Positions 6,743 to 48,714 of a DNA stretch of 64,000 nt are shown piece after piece. The stretch's first letter is position 1; every line of letters begins with the position of its first letter. Origin of the DNA: Chitinophaga sancti (lineage in GTDB: Bacteria; Bacteroidota; Bacteroidia; Chitinophagales; Chitinophagaceae); contig NZ_CP139247.1 of assembly GCF_034087045.1 (NCBI RefSeq), positions 6,164,001-6,228,000 of the forward strand, written 5' to 3'. The position numbers and the translations under genes are program-made. Under the pieces are notes generated by a model. The model was not told the DNA's origin. It did not search any database and was given only the letters and a program-made list of their open reading frames with translations.

Positions 6743-6760
6743 CAAATAAAAATGTTCTAG

Positions 6761-6803
6761 CAAATAAAAAAGCTTTTGCCAAAGGCAAAAGCTTTTTTAT
6801 TTG
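6761..6803 (+). terminator. Bidirectional terminator between GH89 and the lipoprotein gene
   Basis: A perfect 20-bp stem with an AAA loop (6781-6783), containing A and T runs on both sides of a GCTTTTGCC/GGCAAAAGC core, lies between convergent genes and can serve both strands. Confidence 0.92.
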
Positions 6804-6889: not shown

Positions 6890-7465
6890 CTATATTTTAC
6901 CAGTAGCCAGTAATGATTTTATTTTTTCTAACTGCTCTGGAGTAGTATACTCTACAAAAATCTTCAGGTCAAAACAACCGTAGTTTTTAAAGACAGTTAT
7001 AGTAGTTGTACCTCTGGCTGTTTTGGCAGAAGCGCCTTTCAGGTGTTCGGAGCCGATAGTGAGTTCTCCGTTTTCTTCTCCTTTAGGTTGTACATCAGTC
7101 AGTGCGAAGCCGATGGTAGCACCGGCACCTTCTTCGGGATTCACGTCGCGGATGGTGAAGAGAGCACCTTTGTTGGCCTGAGCATCTGCAAGGGTCAGGG
7201 TCTTTTGACGGACCATATCTTCTGGTGCATTTTTACTCAGGGGAACGTAGTACTGGATTCTTCCTAAGGAAGTTTGTAAGTACCATTCGTTGGGCAGGTT
7301 TAAGGAGAAACCCAGTTCTTTGTTTTCATACTTCCAGTTACCATCGAAGTGACTGGAAAGAACGCCGGTGGAAATGGCGGTAGTTTTCGTACAGCTACTA
7401 CCACATCCCGTCCCTATCAGACAGGTGATAATAGCTGCCAATAACAGGAATTTTGCCTTTGGCAT
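6890..7465 (-). CDS. Lipoprotein of unknown function
   Basis: A 191-residue protein with a lipoprotein signal, MPKAKFLLLAAIITCLIGTGC, giving lipidation at Cys21. The mature part contains NKELGFSLNLPNEWYLQT, a segment resembling the PsbP-like or DUF fold in which a cell-surface beta-sandwich protein begins with a 'GFSLNLP-W' strand. No catalytic motif is visible. It is downstream of the GH92 gene on the same strand. The codons around its ATG (CCTATGCCAAAGG...) are nearly identical to the tandem repeats in the preceding spacer (compare CCTATGCCATAAG in the copy at 7546-7611). This suggests that its start region was captured from, or gave rise to, the repeat array. Confidence 0.75.
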   Translation of the reverse strand: MPKAKFLLLAAIITCLIGTGCGSSCTKTTAISTGVLSSHFDGNWKYENKELGFSLNLPNEWYLQTSLGRIQYYVPLSKNAPEDMVRQKTLTLADAQANKGALFTIRDVNPEEGAGATIGFALTDVQPKGEENGELTIGSEHLKGASAKTARGTTTITVFKNYGCFDLKIFVEYTTPEQLEKIKSLLATGKI

Positions 7466-7748
7466 AGGGTGTCATTTTTGGTTTTATAGCACGGGAATAT
7501 TCCCAATATATTATTAAGTAGTTATTTCATCAGGTAAGAAATTTTGGCTTATGGCATAGGATTATCCAATGCATGAATACTTAGTTTTTCAACAGGATCA
7601 GATAAAATTTTGGTTTATGGCAAAGGAGTATCTCCAATGCATGTAAAATTAGTTTTTCATTTGGATTCGGTAAAATTTTGGTTTATAGTACAGGAATCTC
7701 TCCAATACATTTACAATCAGTTATTTCAATAGGATCAGAAAAAATTTT
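7449..7748 (-). repeat. Degenerate tandem copies of the GH92 gene 3' end
   Basis: Four consecutive units of 66, 66, 68 and 69 bp (7480-7545, 7546-7611, 7612-7679, 7680-7748) plus a partial one (7449-7479) share the frame GGTTTATRGCAYAGGA...TCCAAT...GGATCAG...AAAATTTT. The 7680-7748 unit is the last 22 codons of the GH92 gene and its stop. The others lie in the spacer. The distal unit still reads IGNIPVL-stop against IGEIPVL-stop in the gene. The partial unit contains the ATG of the downstream lipoprotein gene. Confidence 0.85.
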
Positions 7749-10700
7749 CGCTTGCTGAATATAGCCTTTGAAAATACGGGTTCCGGGAAATTCTTCATTA
7801 CGTCCTAACGTCCATTTATTCCCTACGGACAGGTTAACTGGCGTGTCCAGTTTTGTCTCCCCTTTCAAAACGCCGTCGATATATAACTTAAGCCCCTGTT
7901 TATCACATACTCCGGCAATATGATGCCAGTGGTTCAACCAATGTTCCGGCAAAGGTACGGTAATATCTCCCCTGCCCCAACCCCCAGCAAAAAAACTTAA
8001 CATTCTGCCGTCAGTAATCTGAAGAACGTGGGTGTCTCCTTTGGAGAATACATCGACAAGACCGGGGGTTTGTTCTGTTGGGTAAATCCAGGCCATCATC
8101 GTGAGCGTGGTACCTAATTCATCGAGAGAACGGGCGTTTGGGACCTCGATGTAGTAGTCAGGGCCAAAGAGAGGGTTTGCAGCTTTGGAAGAACTGCCGG
8201 AGGCAGAAGTGCTTTGAGAATTTTCAGCGGCTACCGTATTGCCAGAGGCAGTAACATGCTGTGATTTTTCAGTAATAATATTCTGACCACTGGCAGTTCC
8301 TTCCTGCGAATTTTCAGATATAATTACCTGACCATCATTCCCAAACCCTGACACATCCTTCGTCCCTTCCAAAGCCAATAACAAAGATTCCATTGGATCC
8401 TTATACACCTTACATCTCTCCCTGATCCCTCCAATACTCACCGTCTGCCAACCAATCATGGTCGCCTTTAACTGACAGGTCACTACCTTTTGCTCTCCCG
8501 GCTCCAATGTAAGTTTAGCTGTATAAAACGCTTTGCCATTCAGATTCACGGGAATGGTAAAAGCCTTTTTAGTCCCTTGCTTATTCATCACAGCAAAGGC
8601 AATACGTTGCACACTATCCTTTTTAATCAATGGTTTTAATACCAGGTCAGAAATAACCGGCGCTACATTCACCAAAGGCACTTTGATCTGCACGCTTCGC
8701 TCCGCCTCCTCATTCAACTGCAATTTATTCTCCCCTGCTTTGTACAGGTATACCTGAATCGAATCGCGGAGCCTCGCCCCTTTGCCGATCAGGCAATTCT
8801 TTGATCCATATAGTTTACCATTTAGGGTCACATTGATCCTGTATACCCCGGCATCCCCATTGTTTATCATTGTAAACCCAATTGGAAAAGGTTGATCAGG
8901 CATAGCGACCGAATCCATACTTATCTCCGTCAGTCTGATGACAGTACGGTTGATATTGTCGCGGGTCACTACCGGCACAGTACCTGTTTCAAATTCCAAA
9001 GTACCACCCCGTTTGATAAACTCATGGGCCATATTCAGTCCCCGGTACTCCACACCATTCAGTCGCACCTGTTGTACATAAGGTGTATGCGTATCATTGT
9101 TTTTAATAGTCAGTACCTTCCCATCTTTCAGGTGGATCTTCATTTCACGGAAAGCAGGGATACCCAGTGCATACAGGGGTTTACCTGGTGCCACGGGGTA
9201 CAATCCTATCGCACTGAAAATGTACCAGCTGGAAGTTGAACCCAGATCATCATTCCCTGGCAACCCACCGGGTGTATTTGAAAAACGATCCTGCATAATC
9301 TTTCTTACCCACAACTGCGTGAGATCTGGCCTGTTGGCATCGTTGAAAAGGTAAGGAACATGAAAAACGGTTTCATTGTCAAAGATGATATGTTGCTTTT
9401 CAAGCGCCGTATCCAACCGGAGAGAAAACAACTCATCTCCCCCCATCCTATTAATCAATTCACGGGGATGCTGTGGTACGAAGAAAGAATACACCCATTG
9501 ATCACCTTCTTTATAACCGGTATTACCAGGATTGAGTTTGAACTTCTCTTTATTGCGTGGCAACAGGAATAACGAAGGGATGTGCAATAATTGTTGGAAG
9601 GCTAAGCTCCTGTCGTCACTCACTTTTGCATGCATTGCTTCTTTTGCAAACAGGTTCAGCGCCCAGTCATCGTAGGCATACTCTACGGTACGGGTCACGG
9701 ATTCAGGATATATAGATGGTACATATCCCAGTTCGTGATAAGCCGGCATATCAGGTTGCAGGTAAGGTGTGTCATTGATGCTTTTTTGCATCGCCTTGTA
9801 TACTTCTTCCTTATCCATCGGGATGCCTTTGAAATAGGCATCGGTAATGATAGGGATGGAATGATTGCCTGTCATGCTCTCTGTAGGCAAATGACCGGTG
9901 CTGTGATAAACGTCCAGCATAGAGCGGATCATGGCAGCCTGCAGGTCAGGATATAGTAGACTGAGTAATGGATGTAAAGTGCGGAAAGTATCCCATGGGG
10001 AAAAACCGCTGTATTTACCTTCATGCAGCCATGGTAGTAAGAGGGAGTGATAAAGGGCGGTGTAGAAAATAGCTTTACCTTTTTCATTGTCATCATTAAT
10101 CTCAACCACTGATAATAGGTCGTTCCATTGCTTATAGGTAGCTGCTCTGACAGCATCAAAGGAACGCTGTTCCTTACCGATCCGTGCTTCAATAATGGTT
10201 GTACCTTTGGGAAATGTATAGACAGTGCCATTGGTTAAGACTTGCTGGTCAATGGGCTTTATGCTAAACTGAAGAGGGCTGCTTGTAAAGATGTGAGGTG
10301 TGCCCTTAGCTGAAAAGTTCGCAGGCTTGTCCTTTGAAGGGTTCGCAGGCTTGTGCTTAGCTGAAAGGTTCTTGGAATTGCTTTTATCAGGAAAGATCCC
10401 AGGTGTGCCCTTATCAGAAAAGGTAAACCTAAAAACCCCGCCATCAGGAGAGGCCGTCATTTCAATTAAAGTATGGTTATCTCTGAAAAGTACCCTGTAA
10501 TAACCCGGTTCCGCATATTCGTCCTTGTGAGTAAACCGACGGCTATAGTGATCAGCATCAAATGGCTGGTTATCACCTACAGGCATTACAAATACGCTCC
10601 CCGCCGATCCACCGGGAAAACCACTATGGTGATCCATACAGGTGAAATAACAAATGGAGCTATCCTGAAAGTCATAGCCTTTAGCCCCCGTCCTTCTCGT

Positions 10701-10904
10701 CTCAGGGGTCAGTTGGTAATAACTGTGAGGAGCCACAGCACCGGGATAGCAGCCGCCTTCATTCCCCCATTTAGTCAGCACTGCACTTTTGGTCGTACCG
10801 ATGAATGGGTTGACATATGCTACCGGAGATTTTACCTGGGCGCCAGCGGCGTTGGAAAATAAGATCAGTAGCAGGATGTGGCGGATGTTGGCTGAAAGAT
10901 TCAC
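7683..10904 (-). CDS. GH92 alpha-mannosidase-like protein with C-terminal LamG domain
   Basis: An exported exo-alpha-mannosidase-type enzyme of about 1073 residues. After a signal segment (HILLLILFSNAAGAQ) come the GH92 landmarks YVNPFIGT, GNEGGCYPGAVAPHSYYQLT, MDHHSGFPGGSAGSVFVMP, FSPWDTFRTLHPL, ESMTGNHS and GGLPGNDDLGSTSSWYIFSA. Residues 600-830 are Ig-like/CARDB-like beta segments. A LamG/concanavalin-like domain fills about residues 915-1073. Two low-complexity stretches are odd: a Lys/Pro/Ser-rich insertion near residues 161-198, and three 15-residue repeats of the form xENSQxxTASGx near 858-910. The GTG at 10904 is preferred because it starts the signal peptide; the in-frame ATG at 10970 would add 22 poorly hydrophobic residues. 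The 3' end is duplicated downstream as a tandem array. Confidence 0.88.
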   Translation of the reverse strand: MNLSANIRHILLLILFSNAAGAQVKSPVAYVNPFIGTTKSAVLTKWGNEGGCYPGAVAPHSYYQLTPETRRTGAKGYDFQDSSICYFTCMDHHSGFPGGSAGSVFVMPVGDNQPFDADHYSRRFTHKDEYAEPGYYRVLFRDNHTLIEMTASPDGGVFRFTFSDKGTPGIFPDKSNSKNLSAKHKPANPSKDKPANFSAKGTPHIFTSSPLQFSIKPIDQQVLTNGTVYTFPKGTTIIEARIGKEQRSFDAVRAATYKQWNDLLSVVEINDDNEKGKAIFYTALYHSLLLPWLHEGKYSGFSPWDTFRTLHPLLSLLYPDLQAAMIRSMLDVYHSTGHLPTESMTGNHSIPIITDAYFKGIPMDKEEVYKAMQKSINDTPYLQPDMPAYHELGYVPSIYPESVTRTVEYAYDDWALNLFAKEAMHAKVSDDRSLAFQQLLHIPSLFLLPRNKEKFKLNPGNTGYKEGDQWVYSFFVPQHPRELINRMGGDELFSLRLDTALEKQHIIFDNETVFHVPYLFNDANRPDLTQLWVRKIMQDRFSNTPGGLPGNDDLGSTSSWYIFSAIGLYPVAPGKPLYALGIPAFREMKIHLKDGKVLTIKNNDTHTPYVQQVRLNGVEYRGLNMAHEFIKRGGTLEFETGTVPVVTRDNINRTVIRLTEISMDSVAMPDQPFPIGFTMINNGDAGVYRINVTLNGKLYGSKNCLIGKGARLRDSIQVYLYKAGENKLQLNEEAERSVQIKVPLVNVAPVISDLVLKPLIKKDSVQRIAFAVMNKQGTKKAFTIPVNLNGKAFYTAKLTLEPGEQKVVTCQLKATMIGWQTVSIGGIRERCKVYKDPMESLLLALEGTKDVSGFGNDGQVIISENSQEGTASGQNIITEKSQHVTASGNTVAAENSQSTSASGSSSKAANPLFGPDYYIEVPNARSLDELGTTLTMMAWIYPTEQTPGLVDVFSKGDTHVLQITDGRMLSFFAGGWGRGDITVPLPEHWLNHWHHIAGVCDKQGLKLYIDGVLKGETKLDTPVNLSVGNKWTLGRNEEFPGTRIFKGYIQQAKIFSDPIEITDCKCIGEIPVL

Positions 10905-11123
10905 TATGACGTTGTGGTTTGGGCGTAAAATATAAAAATTATACAACAGTGTGTGCAAAAAAGGACACATCTCTCAAAGAAATTGAGTACTGGTAGGCTC
11001 ATCGGTGGAAATGCCGGATAGAATTGGGTATAGGTATTTTATTATAATGCATAAATGATTGTTGGCATAGTATTCGTCCCTATTCCGATATATATTATTT
11101 ATTAATCCTTAAATTTTTTCACA

Positions 11124-19873: not shown

Positions 19874-22800
19874 TTAATTGTTAAAGTTCCTTACCAGTGT
19901 AGTGTATCCTTTGATCACTTCCCATCCTGAACTAGCTGTGCGTTTGATTCGCAGCAGGTAGAAATAAGTCCCTTCGTTCAAGCCATCTCCTTTCCATGTA
20001 TTCTGGTAGTTCTTTTGTCTGAAGACTTCATTACCCCAACGGTTTACGATGATCAGTTCAGTTTCAGCGTACTGGCTGAGGCCCCTGATTTCGAATACAT
20101 CGTTCTGCCCATCGCCGTTCGGTGTGAACAGGGTTGGTACGGTGATCTCTGCGAATGAGGTAGAGATCCTGACAGTAGCGGTGTTGGTAGTTTTACCATC
20201 AGCGGTTGTCACTGTATAAGTGAAGGAGTCTTCACCGGTGTAACCTGTAGCAGGTGTGTAGGTGATGATACCGTTGCTGTTTACGACTACTGAACCGTGG
20301 GTAGGTTGATCTATGATAGTTACAGTACCCGGATCGAAGGTCGAAGTACCTGCGCTGTCGTTGGCGAGGACGTCGATGTCGAGTGGTGTGTTGGCGACTA
20401 CTGTTACGCTGTCGTTAACGGCAATCGGGTTGTTGGAGGTGTCAGGTGTTACGGTAACGGTGACTGTCACCTCGGTAGTACCGCCTTTGCCATCGTCTAC
20501 GATAACGGTGAAGGTGTCATCGCCGGTGTAGCCTGGTGTTGGTGTGTAAGTGTATGTACCGTCAGGATTTACTACTACAGAGCCGTGGGTTGGATCGTCG
20601 CCTTTGGTGAAGGTGAGTGGATCGCCGTCTGGATCGGTAGCGGTGATGGTGCCAGTGGCTGGGTTGTCCTGCTCAGTGGTGATGGTTTGGTCACCGGTTA
20701 TTACTGGATCGTGATTGACTGGATTTACAGTAACTGTCACGGTGATTTCGGTAGTACCACCTTTGCCATCGTCTACGATAACGGTGAAGGTGTCATCGCC
20801 GGTGTAGCCTGGTGTTGGTGTATAAGTATATGTACCGTCAGTATTTACTACTACGGAGCCGTGGGTTGGATCGTCACCTTTGGTGAAGGTGAGTGGATCG
20901 CCGTCTGGATCGGTAGCGGTGATGGTGCCAGTAGCTGGTTTGTCTTGCTCAGTGGTGATGGTTTGGCCACCGGTTACTATTGGATCGTGATTGACTGGAT
21001 TTACAGTAACGGTAACAGTGATTTCGGTAGAGCCACTATTGCCATCGCTAACGATAACAGTGAAGGTATCGTTGCCGGTGAACCCGGTAGATGGTGTGTA
21101 AGTGTAGGTACCGTCAGGATTTACAACTACGGAGCCATTTGATGGATCAACACCTTTGCTGTAAGTCAGCGGATCGCCATCTACATCAGTAGTGGTTACA
21201 CTGCTGGTCAGTGGAGTGTCTTCATTTGTTTGTTCAGTGGTGTTTGAGCCAGATGGATCATCGTTTACAGGATTGACAGTGATGTCAATACTGATAGTGC
21301 TAGTGCCACCATTGCCATCGCTTACTGTTACTGTAAAGCTATCAGGACCATTATAATTAGTGGTAGGAGTATAAGTATATGTACCATCATTATTTACCAC
21401 TACTGAACCATGTCCTGGATCAGTAGCCTTGGTATAAGTCAGCACATCGCCATCTACATCAGTACCGGTTACCTGACTGGTCAAAGCAACATCTTCATCC
21501 GTTTCTTCTGTAAAGGTACCTCCTACTGGTGCATTATTTACAGCGTGTACTGTGATATTGACTGTAATTGTAGCAGTTTCTGTTCCATCGCTTACTGTTA
21601 CTGTGAAGCTATCAGGACCATTATAATTAGTGGCAGGAGTGTAAGTATATGTGCCATCACTATTTACTACTACTGAACCATGTGATGGATCGGTTGCCTT
21701 GGTATAAGTCAGCACATCGCCATCTACATCGGTGCCGGTTACCTGACTGGTCAAAGCAACATCTTCATCCGTCTCCTCTGTAAACGTACCTCCAACAGGC
21801 GCATCATTTACAGGATGTACTGTGATGTTGACTGTAATTGTAGCAGTTTCTGTTCCATCACTTACTGTTACTGTGAAGCTATCTGCACCATTATAATTAG
21901 TAGCAGGAATATAAGTATATGTACCATCACTATTTACTACTACTGAACCATGTGATGGATCGGTAGCCTTGGTATAAGTCAGCATATCGCCATCTACATC
22001 GGTGCCGGTTACCTGACTGGTCAAAGCAACATCTTCATCCGTTTCTTCAGTAAAGGTGCCTCCTACTGGTGAGTCATTTACAGCGTGTACTGTGATATTT
22101 ACTGTAATTGTACTTGTCCCACCATTACCATCGCTTACTGTTACTGTGAAGCTATCAGGACCATTATAATTAGTAGCAGGAGTATAAGTATATGTACCAT
22201 CACTATTTACTACTACTGAACCATGTGATGGATCGGTAGCCTTGGTATAAGTCAGCACATCGCCATCTACATCAGTACCGGTTACCTGACTGGTCAAAGC
22301 AACATCTTCATCCGTTTCCTCAGTAAAGGTGCCTCCTACTGGTGCGTCATTTACCGGATGTACTGTGATATTAACTGTGATTGTTGCAGTCGCTGTTCCA
22401 TCACTTACTGTTACTGTGAAGCTATCAGGACCATTATAATTTGTAGCTGGTGTGTAAGTATATGTGCCATCGCTATTCACCACTACTGAACCATGTCCTG
22501 GATCGGTAGCCTTGGTATAAGTCAGCACATCGCCATCTACATCGGTGCCGGTTACCTGACTGGTCAAAGCAACATCTTCATCCGTCTCCTCTGTAAACGT
22601 ACCTCCTACAGGCGCATCATTTACAGCGTGTACTGTGATATTTACCGTAATTGTACCTGTCCCACCATTACCATCACTTACCGTTACTGTGAAGCTATCA
22701 GGACCATTATAATTTGTAGCTGGTGTGTAAGTATATGTACCATCACTATTTACCACTACTGAACCATGTCCTGGATCGGTAGCCTTGGTATAAGTCAGCA

Positions 22801-25800
22801 CATCGCCATCTACATCGGTGCCGGTTACCTGACTGGTCAAAGCAACATCTTCATCCGTCTCCTCTGTAAACGGACCTCCAACAGGCGCATCATTTACAGG
22901 ATGTACTGTGATGTTGACTGTAATTGTAGCAGTTTCTGTTCCATCACTTACTGTTACTGTGAAGCTATCCGTACCATTATAATTAGTAGCAGGAGTGTAA
23001 GTATATGTACCGTCACTATTAACTACTACTGAACCATGTGATGGATCGGTAGCCTTAGTATAAGTCAGTACATCGCCATCTACATCAGTACCGGTTACCT
23101 GACTGGTCAAAGCTACATCTTCATCCGTCTCTTCAGTAAACGTACCACCTACTGGTGCGTCATTTACCGGATGTACTGTGATATTAACTGTGATTGTTGC
23201 AGTCGCTGTTCCATCACTTACTGTTACTGTGAAGCTATCAGGACCATTATAATTTGTAGCTGGTGTGTAAGTATATGTACCATCACTATTTACCACTACT
23301 GAACCATGTCCTGGATCGGTAGCCTTAGTATAAGTCAGTACATCGCCATCTACATCAGTACCGGTTACCTGACTGGTCAAAGCAACATCTTCATCCGTCT
23401 CTTCAGTAAACGTACCTCCAACAGGCGCATCATTTACAGGATGTACTGTAATGTTGACTGTAATTGTACCTGTCCCACCATTACCATCACTTAAAGCAAT
23501 TGTGAAACTATCCGGGCCATTATAATTAGTAGCCGGTGTATAAGTATAAGTACCATCGCTATTCACTACAACCGTGCCATGTGCAGGATCAGTTCCTTTT
23601 GAATATATCACCGCATCACCATCCACATCCGTAGCAGTTACCTGACCATTCAATGCCACATCCTCATTCGTCTCTTCATTCGTATCCGGACCAGATGGAT
23701 TATCATTCACCGGATTAATAGTGATATTTACCGTAATCGTCGCAGTGCCACCATTACCATCACTTACCAGGACCGTGAAACCATCTGTTCCATTATAATT
23801 AGCAGTCGGAACATATGTATAAGTACCGTCTGTATTCACCGTCACCGTACCATGCGCAGGATCAGTGCCTTTGGTATATGTCAGGCCATCACCATCTGCA
23901 TCTGTCGTACTTACACTGCTGTCCAACGTAACATCTTCATTAATCGTATTATTTACAGTTGCATCTACAGGATTATGATTCACCTTCTTCACAGTAATAT
24001 TTACTGTAATGGTTGAACTACCTCCATGACCATCACTCACCGTCACTGTAAACGCATCTGTACCGATATAACCTGTAGTCGGTATATATTGATATGTACC
24101 ATCACTATTCACCGTCACCGTACCATGAGAAGGATTAGTCAATAAAGTAAATGTAACCGCATCCCCATCCAGATCTGTAGCCGTTACGTTACTATCCAGC
24201 TCAGTATCCTGATTTGTTTCTTCATTCGTATCAGGTCCCGTCGGCGCATCATTCACAGCTGTAATACCCAGGGAAATCGTACCCGTAGCCGTCATCGTAC
24301 CACCACTTCCGGTATTCCCATTATCAGAAATAGTCACCGTAATTACCTCTGAAGCCGGAGGCGTATGTGAAGCAGAATAGGTCAGGTTACCACCCGAGAT
24401 ATAACTAGTGATGGCAGACAATGTACCTGACAATGTAATACTTCCACCAGTTCCCGTCACCGTCACACCCGCTACTGTAGCAGTATTGAACCAACCAGTC
24501 GGCACAGTAAAGGTCGCTGTTACTGTACCCGTACCCGCATCCACATCTGCAAAAGATACATCTTTCAATGAAGCAGGCGTATCTTCTGTCACCGCCAGGC
24601 CCGTAGGCAGGGAAATAGTCGGTGCATCATTGACAGGTGTAATATTAATCGTCATAGTCGCTGCTGTGGTTGCATAAGATGTACCATCAGAACCATTCCA
24701 CTGGAATGATGTCGTACCATTCCAATTTGCTGTCGGCGTAAATACAATCTTAGACAGATCAGCCGCTGCTATTTCCTGTCCTGCAGTAATAATGACACCG
24801 TTCAGTTTGAAGCTGCCATTCTGTGGCAAGCTTACTATCTTGATCTTTGACAATGCCGTTCCGTCAGGATCTGTATATACACTGGTAAAGTTCGCTGCTG
24901 TAAAAGTTAATGGATTATCTTCTGCCGCTGATACACTATTATCCGATACAGCCGGCAGGTTGTTCACCACCGCCGATACCGTGAATGTATATGTAGCACG
25001 ATCCGTATTACTATCATTATTCGTGATCGTAATTACGGCTGTGTAAGTACCAATCGCATGTGATGCAGGATTGAAGGTCACGGTAAAACCAAGACCCGAA
25101 CCACTTGTGATCGATGTACCAGTAGGCTGTGAAGTCACACTAAAACCAGCATCTCCACTGATTGCCACAATCGGAGAACCCGTCAGTGTGATCGTACCTG
25201 TACCTATGTTCTGTACAATAAAGGTATTACTCACAGACCCATCTGTTGGCGTCAACACGCCGTAGTAAGTACCATCGGTTGCGGAAGTCGTCGTCTTGTT
25301 GTCTGCAATGGAAGAACCATTACCTGTTACATTGACTCTTGGAGATGTTAAGATATAGATACTAGTGGTTGACGAAGGCCCCGTTTCTTTACCATCATTC
25401 AATGCGATCGTGATGGTACGGGTCGTAGTCGTTGGCGAAGCCTTTGTATTCATGTACTGAATCAGCTTCAACGCCTCTGCATAATCAGCAGCAGATGCCA
25501 CACCAGATAAGGTTATCGTTGTTGTATTTGCACCGGAAATGGTAATGCCTGAAGGCAGTGTTCCATTCAGTATCAGGTATTCTGATGTACCATCCAGGTT
25601 ATTCGTCAATGTGATCGTCGCGCTGGAAATATTATCACCATCCGGATCTGTCACCGTTACATCATTGTCAGTCACATTGGCACCAGTCGTACTACCCGCG
25701 GCAAAGTAATTGATATAATTCTTTGTGGTGGCGCCAGAACTGCTATCTGCATCCAGGTTTACCACCGGACAGTTATTCACCGCAATCTGAGCAGTGATCA

Positions 25801-27712
25801 GGTTATTGTCGTAATAACATTCTTTATAAGTACTGTTCTGATTCGCCAGGCTCGATAATGTGAAAGGTGTACCTACTGCATGCCCTACTCCACCACTTAC
25901 AAATGAACCATTATCATTCAGTATCATCGTCAGCGGAATATTCACATTGCTGAAACTGCTGAGGTCCAGGTCAAAATCAAAGGTACGGCACACACCCTGT
26001 GGTATATCCTGGCTGAATGTACCTGTATATATTAATATCGCTGATGGATCTGTAGTCGGATCACCAGAGTAAAAGGATACCGGCATGCCACCATTGCTAT
26101 TACCAGCACCGGGGTTACATACGTTCACAGATGCCTTAACAATATTACAGGAACTACCTTTCGAGAATGTAATGCCCGTAGTACTAAACGCCACATCCGG
26201 ACGTGAACCATAATAATCACACGAAAGGAGGAACTGGTAACTAGGGTTAGCCAGACCTGTTTTATTGATGACTGTCAGTTTACTCTTGTCAGAAGACAGG
26301 AAGAAACTAATATCATATACTCCACCGGAGGAGTTCTCGAACCCAACTGTTCCCGAAGCACTACGTGTACTGGTACTATCCAGCGGTACATTTTTAAAAG
26401 CATAGTTGTCATCCCTTCTGATTGTACCACTCAGACCTACCTGCTGGTAGAAGTAACCGGTCACGGTTCCTGCTGTCAGGTCTATATAGCCGTAGGCCGC
26501 CAGTGAGTTTTCATTGCTCTCCCTGTCGGTGTTTACTGCATTACCCGATTCATTAAAATATATAAAGTTAGTACCTGAAGGAATGGTGAATGTACGCTTC
26601 GCGCCCCAGGCATAACTACCATCCAGAATGGCGGAAATGTCAGAATCGATAAACTCTGTACTCATCCCCAATCCCACACGGGAGTAAAATTCTATTACAT
26701 ACGCATCATCAAAGTCTCTTGCATAGTTCGCATCTCTTTTTATAATCAGGTTCCCCCCGGATACATAAATCGTAGGATCATATACGCCCACACCACCTGC
26801 CAATACTCTCTTACTCGAATAATCACCTGCAATGACGCCGGATGATAGCATGCTGGCGGTAGCGGTAGCCGACTTATTATTGATTACATAAGTAGATCTT
26901 CTGTCTACCGAACCTCCATTTGCCAATGTCACAAAACCATCCAATGTACCGGCTGTAAGGTCAATACCAAAACGCATATTAGCATACCCTTCTTCTGTAC
27001 CGGATGCTGAATTCAGGTCGCTATAACTGGAGTTTGTACCCTTGGCCGAAATCATAACAATTTCAGCCCCGGAAGGAATGGGAATACTCAGATCGGTATT
27101 CGTTGTCGATGTTCCGTGCAGCAATGCCCTGATCTGTGGTTCCAGCGGACTAAGCGAGTTGTTGTAAGGCGACAGGTATTCTACATAATAAGAGGAGTGA
27201 GTAGCTGTTGCATTTTCTGTAATAGTCAGGGTAGATCCTGAGATAGAAAACTTCACATTGTTCAGGTAAGGCGTCGCATCCCCGATTTTACTGGTCTGCT
27301 TAATGGTATCGCCCAGGGCCACATTCTTCCATCCATATACGTTGGTACCAGAACCATCGGTATTGGTATTCTTCGCATAGTTTACATAACCGGAAGATGT
27401 AGCATTTCCCACATCAATGATTGCATTAATGGTGATGAAGTCCTCATCTCCCTGGTCATAATCGGAGGCCCCGGTGGTTATACCTGTTTCGGAAGAAACA
27501 TACACCGCGATGGATTTAGTCCCGGTCGGAATGGTAAAGGTGGGGGCTGCGCCTCCGGGAGCTCTGTATTTGGCTTCTATGCCTAATACGTCGGCTCTTT
27601 TACCGCCGCTTGGACTACATGGACTGTAAGGTAACTGGGCCTTTGCCAGAAACGGGAACGCTATTAAGCAGATGCAAATGCTTAACGCTACTTTAATGAA
27701 ATTTTCTTTCAT
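19874..27712 (-). CDS. Giant repeat adhesin with T9SS type B C-terminal domain
   Basis: A 2612-residue cell-surface protein. Signal peptide residues 1-25 end AFPFLAKA. Residues 25-560 contain three related blocks of about 160 residues with the pattern 'IDLTAG...GY'. A choice-of-anchor-D-like domain occupies about 790-920, then cadherin/Ig-like domains. From about 1160 to 2430 come 14 bacterial cadherin-like repeats with the Asp-rich Ca2+-binding core [12 protein letters not shown] and the [14 protein letters not shown] strand. Units 4-11 (about residues 1427-2149) are nearly identical. A last Ig-like domain leads to the type B sorting domain [20 protein letters not shown]...[15 protein letters not shown] (2525-2612). 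It should be exported by the type IX system with the adjacent PorP/SprF protein and act in adhesion or gliding. Confidence 0.95.
21265..23430 (-). repeat. Eight nearly identical ~270-bp tandem repeats inside the adhesin gene
   Basis: The landmark GTCAGCACATCGCCATC recurs with few changes near 21440, 21710, 21980, 22250, 22522, 22792, 23061 and 23331, a period of about 270-273 bp (90-91 codons). Variation concentrates at a few sites (PGHG or [20 protein letters not shown] or DGNGGTxTI), the pattern expected from recombination among copies. Flanking repeats are clearly more diverged. Confidence 0.9.
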
Positions 27713-40743: not shown

Positions 40744-42273
40744 CTAAAATGAATAAGAGTAATTCATAGTGCCGGTATATTCTCTTACAGCGTCTTTTTG
40801 CAAATAGAGTAACGAACTACTTATATTATGTTTCTTCCCTTTTGGCGTGTAACCTAGTGTCAATCCGGTATTAAACAGATCGGTTTGTGTACTTGCCACT
40901 TTTGTTCTATTATAGGTTGTTACTAATGCGACTTTACATGTTTTATTAAAGAATTGCTTACTGATATTTAGATTGGGGCCGAAGAATTCGGTATTGAATC
41001 CTGCGGAGGTATTGTAGTAATAGTTGAAGGCAGTAGTAAGAGACATGTCCTGTTTTTTGAGGAGGTAGGTATAACTCAGATTACTTGTGAAAAAACTGCT
41101 CAGGTTATCATTGGCATCGCTTTTGTCGCTGGCATGCTGGAATGAAGTATTGAGGGTAATGGCGCTGTTGTTTATCCTGTACATGAGCATACCGTTGTAG
41201 GTAGTATTTAACTGGTAATAGTCAAGTGTATCTAGTGGATTGGTAAAGTAAGGATCGGCTAGCGGGCGCACGCGGGTAAACGTATTGAAGTTGGAGTAGT
41301 TTGCTGACATGGTCCAATGATCATTGGGGGTGATGGCGGTGTTGATATTGGCTACCCAGCGGCGGGTATCACTCATTTTTTGATGGTTGAGGTTATTGAC
41401 TTGCAGACCGGCGTTGCCGGACAGGGTTATTTTCCCTTTCCAAAACTGTAAGGTGGGGGCGATAGTAATATTACGCATATCGTTTACTACTGTATAAGCG
41501 CCTAAGGTGGTGTAATCAGGTGCCACCCGTTCATAGCGAAGTTGAATAGAATAGGTATTGGCAGTATATCCTAAGCCTGCCTGAATGGCATCATAATACA
41601 GGTTATTAAGGAGGGAGATGGAATATTCTGCATCAGCAAAAATGCGTTTGGTAATATGTTGTTTTATGGCGAATGCGGCGGTTTGATTTTTTGTAGTGGC
41701 ATTTGCAGCAGTAGCATCATGAGCTGAATCATCATGGGCTGTAGCATGTTGGGGGATACCATCCTTTGCTGTAAATAACGCTATACTATAACTATTTCCA
41801 TTGTTTTCATAGCCTAGTTTCGTTCCATATCCTTTTCTGTTCAGGGATTTTTCCAGTGTACCATACATGGCTGCTATGCGCCATTTGCCGGGAGTGAGCT
41901 CCACTCCTGCCCCATTGAATACGTGGCCGGCCAATGTGTAATTGGAGAATTGCATACTGGTAGTGCCGAGGTACAATTTTGCCCATTTGTAGGAGGGGGC
42001 AAAACGATATTGATTAAAAGGTTGGGAATATTGAGTGCCCTGGTTGCTATAGCTGAATGAAAAAGGCATGGCATAGCCGAAGAGGTGTATATTGATATTA
42101 CCATTCATGTACCAGGCGAGTGGGTCACGGCGTTGATTCATGCCAAAGGCTTTATATTTGGTTGTACTGGTATTGATACTGCCATTCATGGTAATGCCTT
42201 TTTTTACGCCTAGCTGGTCGATGGCCTGGGCGGATGCTTGTTGAATAAACAGGATGTAGATTAGGTACTTCAT
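40744..42273 (-). CDS. Predicted outer-membrane beta-barrel protein, unknown function
   Basis: A 509-residue protein with a signal peptide (MKYLIYILFIQQASAQ) and alternating beta strands rich in aromatic residues throughout, ending TGTMNYSYSF with a terminal Phe as in outer-membrane barrels. There is no plug domain and no family motif that I recognise. It is the last gene of a three-gene set reading from 48714. The start at 42273 gives a normal signal peptide. The in-frame ATG at 42297 adds MRKIIHYP, which is a copy of the MSKVVEVI repeat encoded at the end of the upstream gene. Confidence 0.7.
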   Translation of the reverse strand: MKYLIYILFIQQASAQAIDQLGVKKGITMNGSINTSTTKYKAFGMNQRRDPLAWYMNGNINIHLFGYAMPFSFSYSNQGTQYSQPFNQYRFAPSYKWAKLYLGTTSMQFSNYTLAGHVFNGAGVELTPGKWRIAAMYGTLEKSLNRKGYGTKLGYENNGNSYSIALFTAKDGIPQHATAHDDSAHDATAANATTKNQTAAFAIKQHITKRIFADAEYSISLLNNLYYDAIQAGLGYTANTYSIQLRYERVAPDYTTLGAYTVVNDMRNITIAPTLQFWKGKITLSGNAGLQVNNLNHQKMSDTRRWVANINTAITPNDHWTMSANYSNFNTFTRVRPLADPYFTNPLDTLDYYQLNTTYNGMLMYRINNSAITLNTSFQHASDKSDANDNLSSFFTSNLSYTYLLKKQDMSLTTAFNYYYNTSAGFNTEFFGPNLNISKQFFNKTCKVALVTTYNRTKVASTQTDLFNTGLTLGYTPKGKKHNISSSLLYLQKDAVREYTGTMNYSYSF

Positions 42274-42276
42274 AGG

Positions 42277-42513
42277 ATAATGGATTATTTTGCGCATGAT
42301 GGATTAATGGATTACTTCGAATACTTGGGAATAGCGGATTAATAAATCACTTGGATTATTTTGTTCATCGCGATAAATTAATCACTTCGATCATTTTTCC
42401 CATGGCGGATTAATAAATCACTTGGATCACTTTGCTGATCTCGGATAATTAATCCCTTCGATCATTTTCCCCATGGCGATTTAATAAATCACTTCGACCA
42501 CTTTGCTCATCGC
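42277..42513 (-). repeat. Degenerate tandem copies of the FN3 gene 3' end
   Basis: Units of 34-36 bp at 42301-42336, 42337-42371, 42372-42407, 42408-42443, 42444-42477 and 42478-42513, plus a partial one at 42277-42300, share GATTAATAAATCACTTCGAT...CATGGCG. The 42478-42513 unit is the last codons and stop of the FN3 gene (MSKVVEVIY-stop). Spacer units still read MGKMIEGINY, ISKVIQVIY-stop, MGKMIEVINL and MNKIIQVIY-stop. Alternate units are more alike, indicating a 71-bp higher-order period. Confidence 0.88.
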
Positions 42514-44448
42514 AGATTTTATATCCCCACGAAGCACAGCGGTAATTTTATATTTGTATACATTTCCAAGGAAGAGCATATTGTCTATAAATTCAGTTTT
42601 AGTACCATCTTGTGTAGTATACAGGGTAAACAAATCATTATTCTTAGCGCGGTAAATGCGGTATTGCTTTACATTTTCGGCATTATATTGCCAGTGTAGT
42701 TTAATTGCCTTGTTTTGTTTACTGGCGCTCCATGTTTTGACAGCTGGACGGATACCTGTTTCAAACCAGACGTCGCCGCTGGTTTCAATAGCGTTATTTC
42801 CTGAATCATCATACACTGCTATTTGGTAGAAGTAGGTATTGCCTTGTTGTAAGGCAGCATCTTTTAAAGATATTTTTAGATGGGAGGTATCCCAGATAGC
42901 GAGTTGCTGGCGAAGGCTATCTTTTGTATTGATCCGGTAAAGGGTATATCGCACTGCGTCTTCGCTGGAGCTGTTATTCCATTCTAATATAATAGCAGTA
43001 TCGGTACTGAAGACTTTTGTAAATAAAGCAGGTGATGGAGCGATTGTATCTGGTCGTTTTAATTGTATTGATAAGGAATAAGGAGAAGTATTATAATTTT
43101 TATCTACGGCAATGACTGTATAGTAGATGCTGCTGCTGAGGGTATGTAGGGTAATGGTATCGGTGAATGAGGGTGTATTAATCACTTTACCCGCAACTTC
43201 CACAAATTCTTCTTTTAGGCTATTGGCACGAAATACCCTGTAACCCAGTAAATCAGCTTCTGTATTCCCATTCCATTGGAGGAACACAATGCCTGCAGAA
43301 TCTACTACTCCTTTTACACCTGTAGGTGTGGCTGGTGGAATAGTGTCGATTAATTGTGCGAAGTAAGGGAAAGAATAAATAGCCTTGCCTTGTTTGGTAA
43401 TTCCTTTAATTCGATAATAGTTTGTAGCACCAGGTTTTAAATCCGTATAAGAATAGGCTATACCTTTCAGGGTAGCAATAGCAATAAACGGTCCTTTACT
43501 ATTGTTAGCTCTTATAATTATGATCTTTGATAACTGATCTGGAAGATTACCAGGCAGGAGCCAGCGTATTTGTATTCGTTGATTATTCTGAATGATGATC
43601 GTATCGAGTTGAGGTCTGTCATCAACTGTTGGCATGCCCATGCCATATACTGTTTCTGAGTAAGGGCCGTACTCGCCGAATGCCGTGATGCCTTTTACCT
43701 TGTAGGAATATTTATGATCATTTTCTGGCAGGGTATCTTTAAAATGAGGTGAGACCACGGGGAGGTCCGAAATCTTTTGGAAGTTTTTCCCATCAGTGGC
43801 ACGCTCTACGATGTAGGCAGAATACGCGTCTTTCCGCCATGCTAAGGCGGCAATTGAATCAGTACAAATGATAGTAAGTTCACGGGGTCTGGCCAGTAAG
43901 GTAGGCACAGCCACTACCACAGCAGTGTCAATGAGCATGTTTTTGGGTTGCTGTGCTAATGATATTCGGTATATATAGCGGTTGCCTGCTTTGATGTCAG
44001 AATCTTCAAAATACAATCCGGCACTTTTGGCTGCCAGTGGAGATAAGTCACAGGATAACAAAGCCATGGACATCCGCCATTCATTTCTATTTTGGGCTTC
44101 ATAAAATGCGCCAAAGCCGTCTTGTTCAGGTGTTGGGTGGTCTCCGTAAATGACTTCAGCTACAATGGCGACACGCTCATCAATGGTATCCATTTGGGAA
44201 AGTGGATAGGGTTTGATAGGTTGTGGAGTCACTAGGGTGGGCTTGTTATGATCAGCATTGTTTTCACCAATGATAAAGCGGTCTATATTATAACCATATT
44301 TGATCCCCATTTCCCAACCAATAATACTGGATGGTGCCCAACGCAACCTGATCAGACCGGGTTTTACATCTGCCATGGCGGCGATATGGTGGTCCTGCCC
44401 TATTGCCCACTGGCTATAGAACAGCAAAAAAAATAAGATACGGTACAT
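42481..44448 (-). CDS. Exported multi-FN3-domain protein, unknown function
   Basis: A 655-residue exported protein. A signal peptide, MYRILFFLLFYSQWAIG, is followed by an unclassified domain (residues 20-185) and then about five fibronectin type III-like beta-sandwich domains. The recurring pattern is 'P-x-V-K-x-W-x-A...I-x-L-x-W...Y-x-I-Y-R-A' (for example GVKGVVDSAGIVFLQWNGN and NKAIKLHWQYNAENVKQYRI). No enzymatic motif or type IX sorting domain is visible. It lies 6 bp after the 1419-residue protein gene, so the two are co-transcribed and probably work together at the cell surface. Its last 12 codons are repeated six times downstream. Confidence 0.82.
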   Translation of the reverse strand: MYRILFFLLFYSQWAIGQDHHIAAMADVKPGLIRLRWAPSSIIGWEMGIKYGYNIDRFIIGENNADHNKPTLVTPQPIKPYPLSQMDTIDERVAIVAEVIYGDHPTPEQDGFGAFYEAQNRNEWRMSMALLSCDLSPLAAKSAGLYFEDSDIKAGNRYIYRISLAQQPKNMLIDTAVVVAVPTLLARPRELTIICTDSIAALAWRKDAYSAYIVERATDGKNFQKISDLPVVSPHFKDTLPENDHKYSYKVKGITAFGEYGPYSETVYGMGMPTVDDRPQLDTIIIQNNQRIQIRWLLPGNLPDQLSKIIIIRANNSKGPFIAIATLKGIAYSYTDLKPGATNYYRIKGITKQGKAIYSFPYFAQLIDTIPPATPTGVKGVVDSAGIVFLQWNGNTEADLLGYRVFRANSLKEEFVEVAGKVINTPSFTDTITLHTLSSSIYYTVIAVDKNYNTSPYSLSIQLKRPDTIAPSPALFTKVFSTDTAIILEWNNSSSEDAVRYTLYRINTKDSLRQQLAIWDTSHLKISLKDAALQQGNTYFYQIAVYDDSGNNAIETSGDVWFETGIRPAVKTWSASKQNKAIKLHWQYNAENVKQYRIYRAKNNDLFTLYTTQDGTKTEFIDNMLFLGNVYKYKITAVLRGDIKSAMSKVVEVIY

Positions 44449-44454
44449 GGAATA

Positions 44455-47400
44455 TTATAGTTTGTAATAAATAGATTTGGTGATAAATGATGTGATATGG
44501 TTTGTGCCTGGTAGCCGGTAGCTGATATCTACAGGATAATAAATATTCTGCTGTAAATCAGGATACAGGCTGGTAAGCAATGGAGATGATGGATTTATTT
44601 TTGCGGTTTTGTTTAGTAATTCATGGTAGTCAAGATTTGCTTCGCAGGATACATAATAGATCATTCTGGCACGTCCGGCAGTGTAAGTATCATTTGCAAG
44701 ATAGACGGCATCCAATGGCGGTGTAGAACGAGATATATCCTTAGACGTTCTTTGAGCGGTAACCTGAGATGTTTCTAAAGTTATACCCTGAGATGTTCCC
44801 TGAGTTATACCCTGAGACGTTCCCCGAGTTATACCCTGAGATGTTCCCTGAGTTATACCCTGAGACGTTCCCCGAGTTATACCCTGAGACGTTCCCCGAG
44901 TTATACCCTGAGATGTTCCCTGAGCTATACCCTGAGACGTTCCCCGAGTTATACCCTGATCTGTCGCATTGTTATAAATCAATGGTATAATCTGATTTTG
45001 CAACCAGCTATTGTTTGCATTCGCTTCCAGAAACACAAGCCCATTTAATTCATACTGATCGAAAGTCTCCTCCATATCCCATCGCTGGCCAATTACACTG
45101 ATATAACCAGTCCCTACATCAAAGAAATCCCGTGAATTTGTAACCCCACTCATTTTTTCAATGAATGTGTTGTACATACTGGTACGGAACCCAAAACCAA
45201 TCAGCTCTTTACTGATAGCTGCGGTAGCATTACCTTTTAAACTATTTTGTGTAATAGTCGTCGTGTCTCCATCTGAAGAAGTAATTGAATGATTGCCGGC
45301 AATTACATTATTAGTGTCAGCCCTGCTCTCCCGTACTACACTCAAAGAATACGAAGTTTCTTTGATCATACCCAATGGTATCGCAAAGTCCAATTGGGCC
45401 ATACCAGAATCATAAGCAAAAGCCGTTTTTATTGACTGCCCACTTTCCGACACCATATTCACTACTATTTCATCTGAAAACAAATACGGCTGCCCGCGTT
45501 TTAGTTTGATATAACCAGCAGGTGATTCTTTTGGCAGAAAATGATACTGGTCTTTTATAGGGTATTCATAGGCAACATTCTCCCATGGTATGTAATCAGG
45601 TGCGACCCCTGTTGTAAAGCTGGTAGATTTCGTTTCGCTATCATCCAGCACCATCCAGCCAGCACCATTCTGTCTTTCTATATGCACCTTTGCTGTTGCA
45701 TTCAGGGTACTGGTCGGTGGTAATATGTCTTTTAGGTGTAACAATGCTGTCGTACCGTCTGATGAAATTTCAGTTGTACCCGTAATAGCAGTTTTATCAT
45801 TCAATAATGTAATCCCATCCAACTGCACCCGATAAGTTGCTACTTCATCATAATTATTCAACATCGAAAATGGCTTAGTAATGGGAATATTGAAAGCCAC
45901 CTGTGGTGTAGCAAATACACTGACTTCATCCGATTGGTGAGCTGGTTTGATATCATTGATAATAGGAAGATCAAGCTCCTTGCCTCCTTCTATTTCGCAT
46001 TGCGAACCCAGTTCTACTTTGATACTTGCAGTACCATGTACCATCCCTCCCAATACTGAATATTTCACACCCACCATTCCTTTCATCCAACTGGGATTCG
46101 GCATTTTTGCCTGTAACAATACCGCTGCTGCCAGTTTTGCGATAGGAAAACCTCTTTTCTTACCAAATACTTTTACCCGCATCCCCACTTCCCCATTCAG
46201 GTAAGCATATGCCTGTCCGGAGGCATACCATCCATTGATACCAATCACCTCATTACTCCCTTTACAACGCGCCTCTCCATAATCGCGGAGACAGATATCT
46301 GCACCTGCACCAATCACAAAGTCTCCATACACGCCATAATCAAAACTAAAATTCGTAGAAAAATGCGCACCAAAAGCTAGTCCGCCGCCGGATTTCAACG
46401 GATATTCCATTGTATTGGAATATGCTCCCAATACATCACTGACTTCTTTGGGCAAAGGTGGCATTTCTTCCAGCTGAGACCCGGTCATGAAATAAGTTTT
46501 AACAGTTGCCAGTCCGGCAATATCCAGGTTAAACATCTGTGAAGGCCGGCCTATATAAAAGTACCAGTCATCCGGCCCTATATGCAATGCGCTTTCGCCA
46601 TTCCCTTTTATAAAGCAATTGATATATGTCTTTGCAATGGCATCGAATGTACTGTCCACATTATCATAACGCATTTTTAAGGTGATACGAAGAGGCGCAC
46701 TTTCATCGCCATTGGCATCTTTACTATTCTGCGCCTTTACTGGTAAATGCAACACATACCCTGCACCATCAAACTGTGCATAACGGAAACCGCCATCTAT
46801 ACCGAACTGCACTTCCAGCGAAGCATTGACATTTACGATCATTTCTTTTACAAGTGCCAGCGATACCCCTCCCATAAAACCCAGCCCGGCCTCCTTAGAG
46901 GGAATATATTGAAAGATCTCATCCCCCTCTTTCAATCCTCCTTTCTGGTCTACCACATTCCGCGAGGCATAAGGATCAAAATTTCCCGGTCTTTCCATAT
47001 GATAAGATAAACCACCCATTAAGCCTGTGAGATTAAGCATCGGTGGTATCGGAATATTCGTACCTACATACGCATCAACATGATAATACCGGTAATCATC
47101 TTTTGAACCAAAATAAGCAGTAGCTTTTGCTTCAGGAATAGGTCCCGGCAATCCGAATTTCAGATACCCCCTGAAACCATTGCCATATAAAGGATGCTTG
47201 TCAAAAAGCGTCAATATCCCATCCATTTTAAAAGCCATCACCGCTACCATGAGATGAATATCGCTGATACTCACTTTCCCATCTGTCACTACGAAGGACG
47301 TAGATCCGCTAAACCCTTTATCAGAAGCATTCATGAAGTTCAATCTCACCCCTGCACCAATGGCGATCCTACCTTCATTAATCCCCAGTCTGATACTATC

Positions 47401-48714
47401 AAATGAAACTGGAAAGGCAGCCATCTTACTACTATTGCTATTCAAGGAAAATGTACCGCTGTGTACATAAGGTTGTTGCGTAGAAAGCACCAGGTCTTCA
47501 AATGCGACACCCTGTATATTCAATACCCCTTTATTAATATTGACCTTTCCATGCAGGGTGGCCACAGGTACAAAATCCCTGACCTCAATCCGGGAATTCT
47601 TATTTAATATAATTTCACCTGCAAAGCATTCGTATTTCCTATCTTCTGCTATTGACAAACCAAATATATAGTACGGATCACTCCCCCGCATATTTACCGA
47701 AGCCTCATAATCAATAGGTGTTTTACCCAGGAAACCTATTTGCAACTGGCCGCCCAGCGTACCTCCATTCAGTTTGTTCTTACTAAAACTGATTCCCAGC
47801 TTATCTATAGAAATAGGCCATCCGCTCAAATTAGCATCTCCTGATTTTACTATATCTGTAGCAGTTAAAGCACCACTCACTCCCTGATCATCTATGATAA
47901 AATCGGTCACCTTTATTGATGGCCGGCCTAATTGGGAAGGCAACCCGACCTCCAGTTCCTGTAAATAAAATCCTCTCCATAATACATCTGTTTCTCTGAG
48001 ACCATCAGGGTTCATTAGGTCACTGAGATCTACCACCGCATTCCGCACTTTGAAAGAGAAATCCTTCAAACCTGTTATATGAAAAGGGGGCAAATCTATC
48101 CCAGCGACAATGTCATTCAAATCAGTAACATGTACCTGTAAAACTGCTTTCAATTTTTCTTCCAATGGGTCCTCCGGCGTCAGCCAACCTTTATCAAATT
48201 CAAATACAGCGCTTAAGTTAGCCCCATTAAAGCCATTGCAATCCCATTCGATATAATTACGCCCATCACCAGGAAAAACAAGATCTACATGCTCATTGAC
48301 AGCAACCTGCTGATCTTTCAGTAATACCAACCTGGTAGCACCGGATACACCTATCCCGCCAGGTGTAAAAGCAATATCCCTCCCACCGAAAATCAGTTCA
48401 TGCTCCGTACCGGGAAAAGGAAATCGGAAATATGCATTCAGGTAAGCACCTGTAGGCGTGAACCGCGCACTGTCAATAGCAATGACATAGATCCTGCCAT
48501 TGATCTCACGGACAAGACCCACCGGCAAGCGACCCATTTCCTGCGTGCCAAGTGCGCTGACATAACGCCCGCTATCCTGAATTTCTTTGAATATACCTGC
48601 TACGTAGTTTGTATCTGATATAGCGCCTGCCAGGGATATGGCGGGGGAAAACAGACATAAGATCACCAACCACAATTGCTGTAGTACAGGTATAGGGTTA
48701 CTATTAAATTTCAT
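44455..48714 (-). CDS. Large exported beta-rich protein with a C-terminal minisatellite, unknown function
   Basis: A 1419-residue exported protein with a signal peptide ending LFSPAISLA. Residues 30-650 are long runs of beta strands with repeated layer-like patterns (for example TLHGKVNINKGVLNIQGVAF), resembling AsmA-like or translocation-type beta-solenoid proteins. Residues 650-1100 contain further beta domains such as GGGLAFGAHFSTNFSFDYGV. Near 1248-1312 an eight-residue unit, SQGITRGT, is repeated about eight times. There is no type IX sorting domain and no family that I recognise. It heads a three-gene set with the FN3 protein and a barrel protein. Confidence 0.72.
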   Translation of the reverse strand: MKFNSNPIPVLQQLWLVILCLFSPAISLAGAISDTNYVAGIFKEIQDSGRYVSALGTQEMGRLPVGLVREINGRIYVIAIDSARFTPTGAYLNAYFRFPFPGTEHELIFGGRDIAFTPGGIGVSGATRLVLLKDQQVAVNEHVDLVFPGDGRNYIEWDCNGFNGANLSAVFEFDKGWLTPEDPLEEKLKAVLQVHVTDLNDIVAGIDLPPFHITGLKDFSFKVRNAVVDLSDLMNPDGLRETDVLWRGFYLQELEVGLPSQLGRPSIKVTDFIIDDQGVSGALTATDIVKSGDANLSGWPISIDKLGISFSKNKLNGGTLGGQLQIGFLGKTPIDYEASVNMRGSDPYYIFGLSIAEDRKYECFAGEIILNKNSRIEVRDFVPVATLHGKVNINKGVLNIQGVAFEDLVLSTQQPYVHSGTFSLNSNSSKMAAFPVSFDSIRLGINEGRIAIGAGVRLNFMNASDKGFSGSTSFVVTDGKVSISDIHLMVAVMAFKMDGILTLFDKHPLYGNGFRGYLKFGLPGPIPEAKATAYFGSKDDYRYYHVDAYVGTNIPIPPMLNLTGLMGGLSYHMERPGNFDPYASRNVVDQKGGLKEGDEIFQYIPSKEAGLGFMGGVSLALVKEMIVNVNASLEVQFGIDGGFRYAQFDGAGYVLHLPVKAQNSKDANGDESAPLRITLKMRYDNVDSTFDAIAKTYINCFIKGNGESALHIGPDDWYFYIGRPSQMFNLDIAGLATVKTYFMTGSQLEEMPPLPKEVSDVLGAYSNTMEYPLKSGGGLAFGAHFSTNFSFDYGVYGDFVIGAGADICLRDYGEARCKGSNEVIGINGWYASGQAYAYLNGEVGMRVKVFGKKRGFPIAKLAAAVLLQAKMPNPSWMKGMVGVKYSVLGGMVHGTASIKVELGSQCEIEGGKELDLPIINDIKPAHQSDEVSVFATPQVAFNIPITKPFSMLNNYDEVATYRVQLDGITLLNDKTAITGTTEISSDGTTALLHLKDILPPTSTLNATAKVHIERQNGAGWMVLDDSETKSTSFTTGVAPDYIPWENVAYEYPIKDQYHFLPKESPAGYIKLKRGQPYLFSDEIVVNMVSESGQSIKTAFAYDSGMAQLDFAIPLGMIKETSYSLSVVRESRADTNNVIAGNHSITSSDGDTTTITQNSLKGNATAAISKELIGFGFRTSMYNTFIEKMSGVTNSRDFFDVGTGYISVIGQRWDMEETFDQYELNGLVFLEANANNSWLQNQIIPLIYNNATDQGITRGTSQGIAQGTSQGITRGTSQGITRGTSQGITQGTSQGITRGTSQGITQGTSQGITLETSQVTAQRTSKDISRSTPPLDAVYLANDTYTAGRARMIYYVSCEANLDYHELLNKTAKINPSSPLLTSLYPDLQQNIYYPVDISYRLPGTNHITSFITKSIYYKL
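44779..44970 (-). repeat. Coding 24-bp minisatellite
   Basis: About eight copies of AGTTATACCCTGAGAYGTTC plus CCYG, period 24 bp, encode the octapeptide SQGITRGT/SQGITQGT in frame. C/T variants alternate (GACGTTCCCCG and GATGTTCCCTG). Flanking codons (TSQVTAQRT, TSKDISRST) look like older, decayed copies. Confidence 0.93.

Follow-up and report, generated by a model that had tools for sequence, protein, structure and literature searches.

The subject of this analysis is a tandem array at the junction of two genes in a 64,000-nucleotide (nt) stretch of the Chitinophaga sancti genome (contig NZ_CP139247.1; hereafter the window, meaning this stretch at its full length), which is part of a genome of 8.32 Mb held in one contig. 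On the minus strand, a gene of 1419 amino acids (aa; 44455-48714) is followed by an FN3-domain gene and then by a downstream gene, and the last two are separated by ~207 bp (Table 1). From a reading of its sequence the downstream protein is predicted to be of outer-membrane type, while a Pfam search assigned it to no family; among the named relatives that carry this gene, [Flexibacter] sp. ATCC 35208 (93% identity) and Chitinophaga silvisoli (77%) come closest.

The array comprises seven imperfect units, each a copy of the last ten codons of the FN3 gene including the stop (MSKVVEVIY-stop in the gene itself, whose end is unit 1). The initial annotation had described such an array from the sequence, and both Tandem Repeats Finder (TRF) and an alignment of the units bear it out. 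TRF reports a period of 71 (2.6 copies, 85% matches, score 268), because the units alternate in an A-B-A-B order, and, in a second call, a period of 36 (5.2 copies, score 202). Reading the units also reproduced the decoded peptides of that annotation, as well as one pair of putative mini open reading frames (mini-ORFs) overlapping as ATGA (units 4 and 5, 42368-42365). The further claim that every unit has retained a start codon, a small peptide and a stop codon failed, since ATG-to-stop frames start in three of the five inner units (2, 4 and 5; the gene's own end excluded). The mini-ORF of unit 2 begins 6 nt past the FN3 stop and extends into unit 3, which itself opens with ATC instead of ATG; in unit 6, which lacks an ATG, a 1-bp deletion shifts the frame, and the stop of unit 5 lies 41 nt from the next ATG. 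Unit 7 abuts the downstream gene at the very position where, in array-less relatives, the gene end directly precedes the start. The absence of a stop from this unit is the reason that a longer downstream reading (MRKIIHYP...) exists, which had been taken for the N terminus of the next gene; this assignment does not hold in the relatives whose junction is readable, as two of them (G053 and G048) carry an in-frame TAA directly before the common start.

Table 1. Coordinates of the array, its units and mini-ORFs, the flanking genes and the second gene-end array in the window
Feature	Coordinates	Strand	Basis
Imperfect tandem array, seven units	42274..42510	-	TRF and unit alignment
Unit 1 (36 bp), the FN3 gene's own 3' end with stop	42475..42510	-	Unit alignment
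Unit 2 (35 bp)	42440..42474	-	Unit alignment
Unit 3 (36 bp)	42404..42439	-	Unit alignment
Unit 4 (35 bp)	42369..42403	-	Unit alignment
Unit 5 (36 bp)	42333..42368	-	Unit alignment
Unit 6 (35 bp)	42298..42332	-	Unit alignment
Unit 7 (24 bp), without stop, 9 bp shorter in alignment	42274..42297	-	Unit alignment, relatives
Putative mini-ORF of unit 2, MGKMIEGINYPRSAK-stop	42427..42474	-	ATG-to-stop frame
Putative mini-ORF of unit 4, MGKMIEVINLSR-stop	42365..42403	-	ATG-to-stop frame
Putative mini-ORF of unit 5, MNKIIQVIY-stop	42339..42368	-	ATG-to-stop frame
FN3-domain gene, upstream, 655 aa	42481..44448	-	Pfam fn3 1.9e-10
Downstream gene, 509 aa, start MKYL at 42273	40744..42273	-	Start context common to G053, G048, G045
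Second gene-end array, ~68-bp copies of the GH92/LamG gene's 3' end	7449..7748	-	TRF 7539-7748, period 68

A comparison with relatives provides the key to the origin of this array. The downstream gene, at 79-93% identity, adjoins the FN3 gene in four genomes of the same genus (G053, G052, G048 and G045). Two of these have no array: the genes are 3 nt apart in G048 (TAA-ACT-ATG, an identical junction sequence being present in C. silvisoli, L003) and 4 nt apart in G045 (TGA-TACT-ATG), and the FN3 gene ends there in MSRVIEVIY and MSKVIEVIY, respectively. G053 has, at the same place, 14 units of 35-37 bp in a different pattern, the majority being a lineage-specific variant, with units of 37 bp breaking the reading frame, a gap of 476 bp and a junction TAA-CCT-ATG before the downstream start. 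The copy number, whose comparison had been proposed with the initial annotation, is seven units in the window and 14 in G053, while in G045 and G048 the gene end is present only once; the ATG/stop pattern, whose conservation was likewise at issue, is kept in some G053 units and is largely not conserved. In two draft sequences, [Flexibacter] sp. ATCC 35208 (L002) and G052 (L010), the array is mostly a run of N and its copy number is unreliable. In five more distant relatives where the gene pair is present (L024, L026, L027, L028 and L030), TRF found no array, and 90-107 bp lie between the ends of the protein matches. Given the array-less relatives and the differing pattern of G053, we conclude that the array grew from the FN3 gene's own tail. 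The simplest history suggested by these sequences would be that the gene end was duplicated before the window species and G053 diverged, and that the array then expanded separately in the two; an independent gain in each is a possible alternative.

The second gene-end array of the window (7449-7748) had been considered to share this architecture. With respect to origin this comparison stands, as it consists of copies of the 3' end of a GH92/LamG donor gene (7683-10970), with the gene and three further units in the window, more units in the G053 counterpart (TRF period 134, 3.1 copies) and one decayed extra copy (22 of 30 bases) in that of G045, which supports the view that it arose in the same manner, from the end of its gene. 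With respect to a start/stop chain it does not stand, the chain length being 0. Other repeats of the window include a 19-bp array (6727-6796) overlying the 3' end of a gene of ~736 aa, the ortholog of which ends in an 18-bp array in G053 and in none detected by TRF in G045; coding repeats of 270-276 bp (20449-23678) inside a 2612-aa gene (19874-27712), where, at the matching place in G053 (matched by position only), the gene call is interrupted by a 3.4-kb array with a period of 270; and an in-frame coding repeat of 24 bp (44763-44959) close to the C terminus of the 1419-aa gene.

Similar arrays were surveyed in 2.0 of the 8.3 Mb of the own genome and in 0.4 Mb each of G053 and G045, using a simple home-made gene caller on which the counts of 3' and 5' ends depend. 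The 2.0 Mb yielded 186 tandem arrays (88 intergenic, 51 intragenic, 40 over a 3' end, 3 over a 5' end, 3 over both and 1 mixed), and the three genomes together gave 106 intergenic, 65 intragenic, 55 3'-end, 3 5'-end, 4 both and 1 mixed. A TRF-free test agreed in direction: 38 of 1448 gene ends recur (at least 21 of 30 bases within 300 bp downstream) vs. 6 of 1448 gene starts upstream, while as controls the reverse complement yielded 0 and a permuted partner 1, and it gave 11 of 277 vs. 1 in G053 and 4 of 236 vs. 0 in G045. This genome-wide pattern is a modest one. The gene-end arrays are unevenly spread over the five blocks of the own genome (L046-L145), with 1 in the 1.4-1.8 Mb block (L066-L085) and 7-12 in each of the other four, and clusters are seen near 0.30-0.38, 3.13-3.34 and 4.75-4.99 Mb.

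Overall, we consider the array between the FN3 and downstream genes to be, with a probability of roughly 85%, a gene-tail minisatellite made by slippage that persists near-neutrally and of which the mini-ORFs are a by-product. In a recent ancestor shared by the window species and G053, at a time when the genes were a few bases apart, a head-to-tail duplication would have copied a segment made up of the final ~30-36 bases of the FN3 gene, the stop, and a few bases past it. Replication slippage or unequal exchange would then have enlarged the array and made its units partly uniform, and it may persist because there is little cost in adding sequence between a stop and the start that follows. The mini-ORFs would be passively inherited, the duplicated segment having happened to carry an ATG nine codons before the stop. 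What the sequences show directly are the donor of the units, relatives without the array, a difference in copy number, a disrupted frame and chaining that does not exceed that of shuffles; that slippage was the molecular step, that the array arose once, before G053 split off, and that it is nearly neutral are what we infer. The head-to-tail units and a copy number varying between close relatives (7 vs. 14) agree with what defines a minisatellite or variable-number tandem repeat. The array differs from the usual bacterial minisatellite, likewise built of imperfect head-to-tail units of tens of bases, in that its unit can be traced to the last codons of the upstream gene and that the array-less state is observed in two near relatives.

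A functional extension of this picture, in which gene ends of this Chitinophaga clade seed private arrays that recur at different genes, last for a while, are remodelled and act as fast-evolving 3' spacers, tuning or uncoupling the next gene, while partial mini-ORF chains soften the loss of coupling in formerly touching pairs, appears quite unlikely to us.

Quite unlikely is also the ribosome hand-over from gene to gene proposed in the initial annotation, by which every unit would terminate and restart translation and carry coupled ribosomes over the enlarged gap. The array-less pairs, 3-4 nt apart, are near enough for coupling, and the position of the first link, so close to the FN3 stop, together with the ATGA overlap, speaks in favor of such a relay. 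A termination-reinitiation relay is defined by a continuous chain of close stops and starts to the next gene. We traced the chain by going from each stop to the start closest to it, applying four rules in which a link could span at most 20 or 40 nt, with 500 dinucleotide shuffles per rule. The chain covered 54, 142, 142 and 142 nt of the 207-nt gap without ever reaching the next gene, which was reached by 68, 254, 169 and 397 of the 500 shuffles. When links of 41 nt are allowed, the chain closes via the ATG of unit 7, but so do 265 of 500 shuffles (ATG only) or 417 of 500 (ATG, GTG and TTG). Failure of the chain to arrive is therefore dependent on the 40-nt limit (the break being 41 nt); the shuffle comparison is not, and it gives the array no advantage as a relay over shuffled sequence. 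Of the 13 ATG frames in G053 (counting the gene's own end), 6 are short frames closing at the TAA of their own unit, as a relay would have it, whereas the other 7 overrun into the following units.

Gene-end arrays as a whole weigh in the same balance. Among those with a score of at least 90 (n = 51), a first link is present in 30, vs. 25.1 from in-array control points, yet only 7 chain to the array end and 16 have no co-directional next gene to receive a ribosome. Arrays do not depend on such a receiver: at a score of at least 50 they occupy 26 of 1011 ends before a co-directional gene and 18 of 440 facing a convergent one (24 and 8, respectively, at a score of at least 150). Periods are not restricted to multiples of three, the remainders 0:1:2 being distributed as 23:21:11 for 3'-end and 40:34:18 for intergenic arrays, vs. 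57:2:3 for intragenic ones. On the sense strand of 32 arrays ATG is depleted (163 vs. 195 in shuffles, standard deviation 8) and stops are mixed (TAA 178 vs. 163.6, TGA 201 vs. 181.2, TAG 86 vs. 123.4), these deviations being overstated by treating repeated units as independent. None of these genome-wide features fits a general ribosome-relay design, and we have rejected a relay as the likely function on the strength of the four rules with their shuffles, the wider rules and the G053 frame pattern.

Very unlikely, in our estimation, is a clade-specific mutational process at gene ends, or a function of the 3' untranslated region (e.g., in transcription termination or mRNA stability), that makes or keeps the arrays. 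The ratio of 40 3'-end to 3 5'-end arrays, with G053 (11 vs. 0, and 1 over both) and G045 (4 vs. 0) pointing in the same direction, raised the possibility of a gene-end-directed mechanism, and in tandem gaps the arrays are indeed displaced toward the stop (mean position 0.36 in the collapsed gap, n = 70). We addressed placement by putting the single unit of each array at random in its collapsed gap. In tandem gaps, 26 of 76 arrays overlap a 3' end and 5 of 76 a 5' end, vs. 15.4 expected in either case; as the surplus at 3' ends equals what is missing at 5' ends, it suffices that arrays are lost from gene starts, and no gene-end-directed process is needed. In convergent gaps there is no significant preference for the stop, which weakens a directed mechanism: at a score of at least 150, 8 of 19 arrays overlap it vs. 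10.4 expected.

As for a role of the transcript, the mean fold z is -0.84 for the sense and -0.82 for the antisense strand (n = 32, Wilcoxon P 0.99), so a structured RNA is unsupported on average, and the 42274-42510 array itself has a z of -1.49. No terminator-like or sigma-70-like site was found in 42200-42600. A search with the Bacteroidota motif TANNTTTG gave 2 matches in L008, neither of them within the array. None of the 7 arrays with a G045 ortholog has an array there by TRF, and of the four arrays of G045, three have an array-less G000 ortholog and one has no ortholog in the block. Sharing with G053 but not with G045 indicates that arrays turn over between lineages.

Several observations nevertheless count against a near-neutral slippage product. 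(i) Of the nine 3'-end arrays in the 6.0-6.4 Mb block, eight have a counterpart where the orthologous gene of G053 ends (209 reciprocal best hits in this block, with a median protein identity of 96.6%), which could mean selective retention instead of slow decay and is the main result allowing for selection. (ii) In convergent gaps, at a score of at least 50, 17 of 38 arrays overlap the stop vs. 13.7 expected, a slight excess that is not significant (P 0.08). (iii) Folds fall below a z of -2 in 9 of 32 arrays on the sense strand vs. 4 of 32 on the antisense one, even though the strands do not differ in mean z; the sense-strand folds, like the sharing with G053 under (i), also speak for a process or function at gene ends. 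(iv) Genes were called with a home-made procedure, and TRF boundaries blur some array classes.

Insertion of a mobile interspersed repeat at the stop/start junction, of the type of mycobacterial interspersed repetitive units (MIRUs), which are described as short mobile intergenic repeats with an ORF coupled to the neighbor gene at -4 nt spacing (PMC12548453), is highly improbable and stands contradicted, since the unit is the conserved tail of the host FN3 gene and the array region matches its own genome at a single place (E <= 0.001). The likeness lies in intergenic repeats with small frames and in a variable copy number, e.g., at senX3-regX3, where two strains of bacille Calmette-Guérin have 2 and 3 copies, respectively, of 77 bp (PMC9392950). 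However, MIRUs are described as mobile and are dispersed through the genome whereas the present unit is private to its gene, and the ATGA by which a MIRU frame overlaps the stop or start of its neighbor has no equivalent here, the sole ATGA being internal (units 4 and 5) and the frames of Table 1 overlapping neither flanking gene.

Two further repeat systems were compared. In Borgs, only 14-38% of intergenic unit lengths divide by three, and the units are described as perfect and A-enriched (PMC9879509); the array described here is imperfect (85% matches), and the A content of 32 arrays is not enriched (31.1% vs. 30.6% in array-free flanks). The intergenic direct repeats of Beggiatoaceae resemble the present arrays in that one genome has many sets of them; there they share one short motif, TAACTGA (PMC4679880), while no unit common to our arrays was seen by eye. 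Searches of open-licence PMC papers gave, among the matches listed, no title or opening of an abstract on stop-spanning arrays, whether in Chitinophaga or in other bacteria. Being neither perfect and A-rich nor a dispersed family, the array is most aptly called a slippage minisatellite that stems from the end of a gene.

The probable slippage minisatellite between the FN3 gene and its neighbor offers, through its array-less relatives, a view of a stop-spanning tandem duplication separating two almost touching genes, by about 207 bp in the window and by 476 bp in G053. It also illustrates how mini-ORFs can line up in a striking chain with no selection for it, and it supplies controls for the reading of other gene-end arrays, namely: the period modulo three, ATG content, convergent gaps and shuffled chains. 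With its many gene-end arrays, this clade offers a ready set in which to measure the effect of gap growth on formerly coupled genes.
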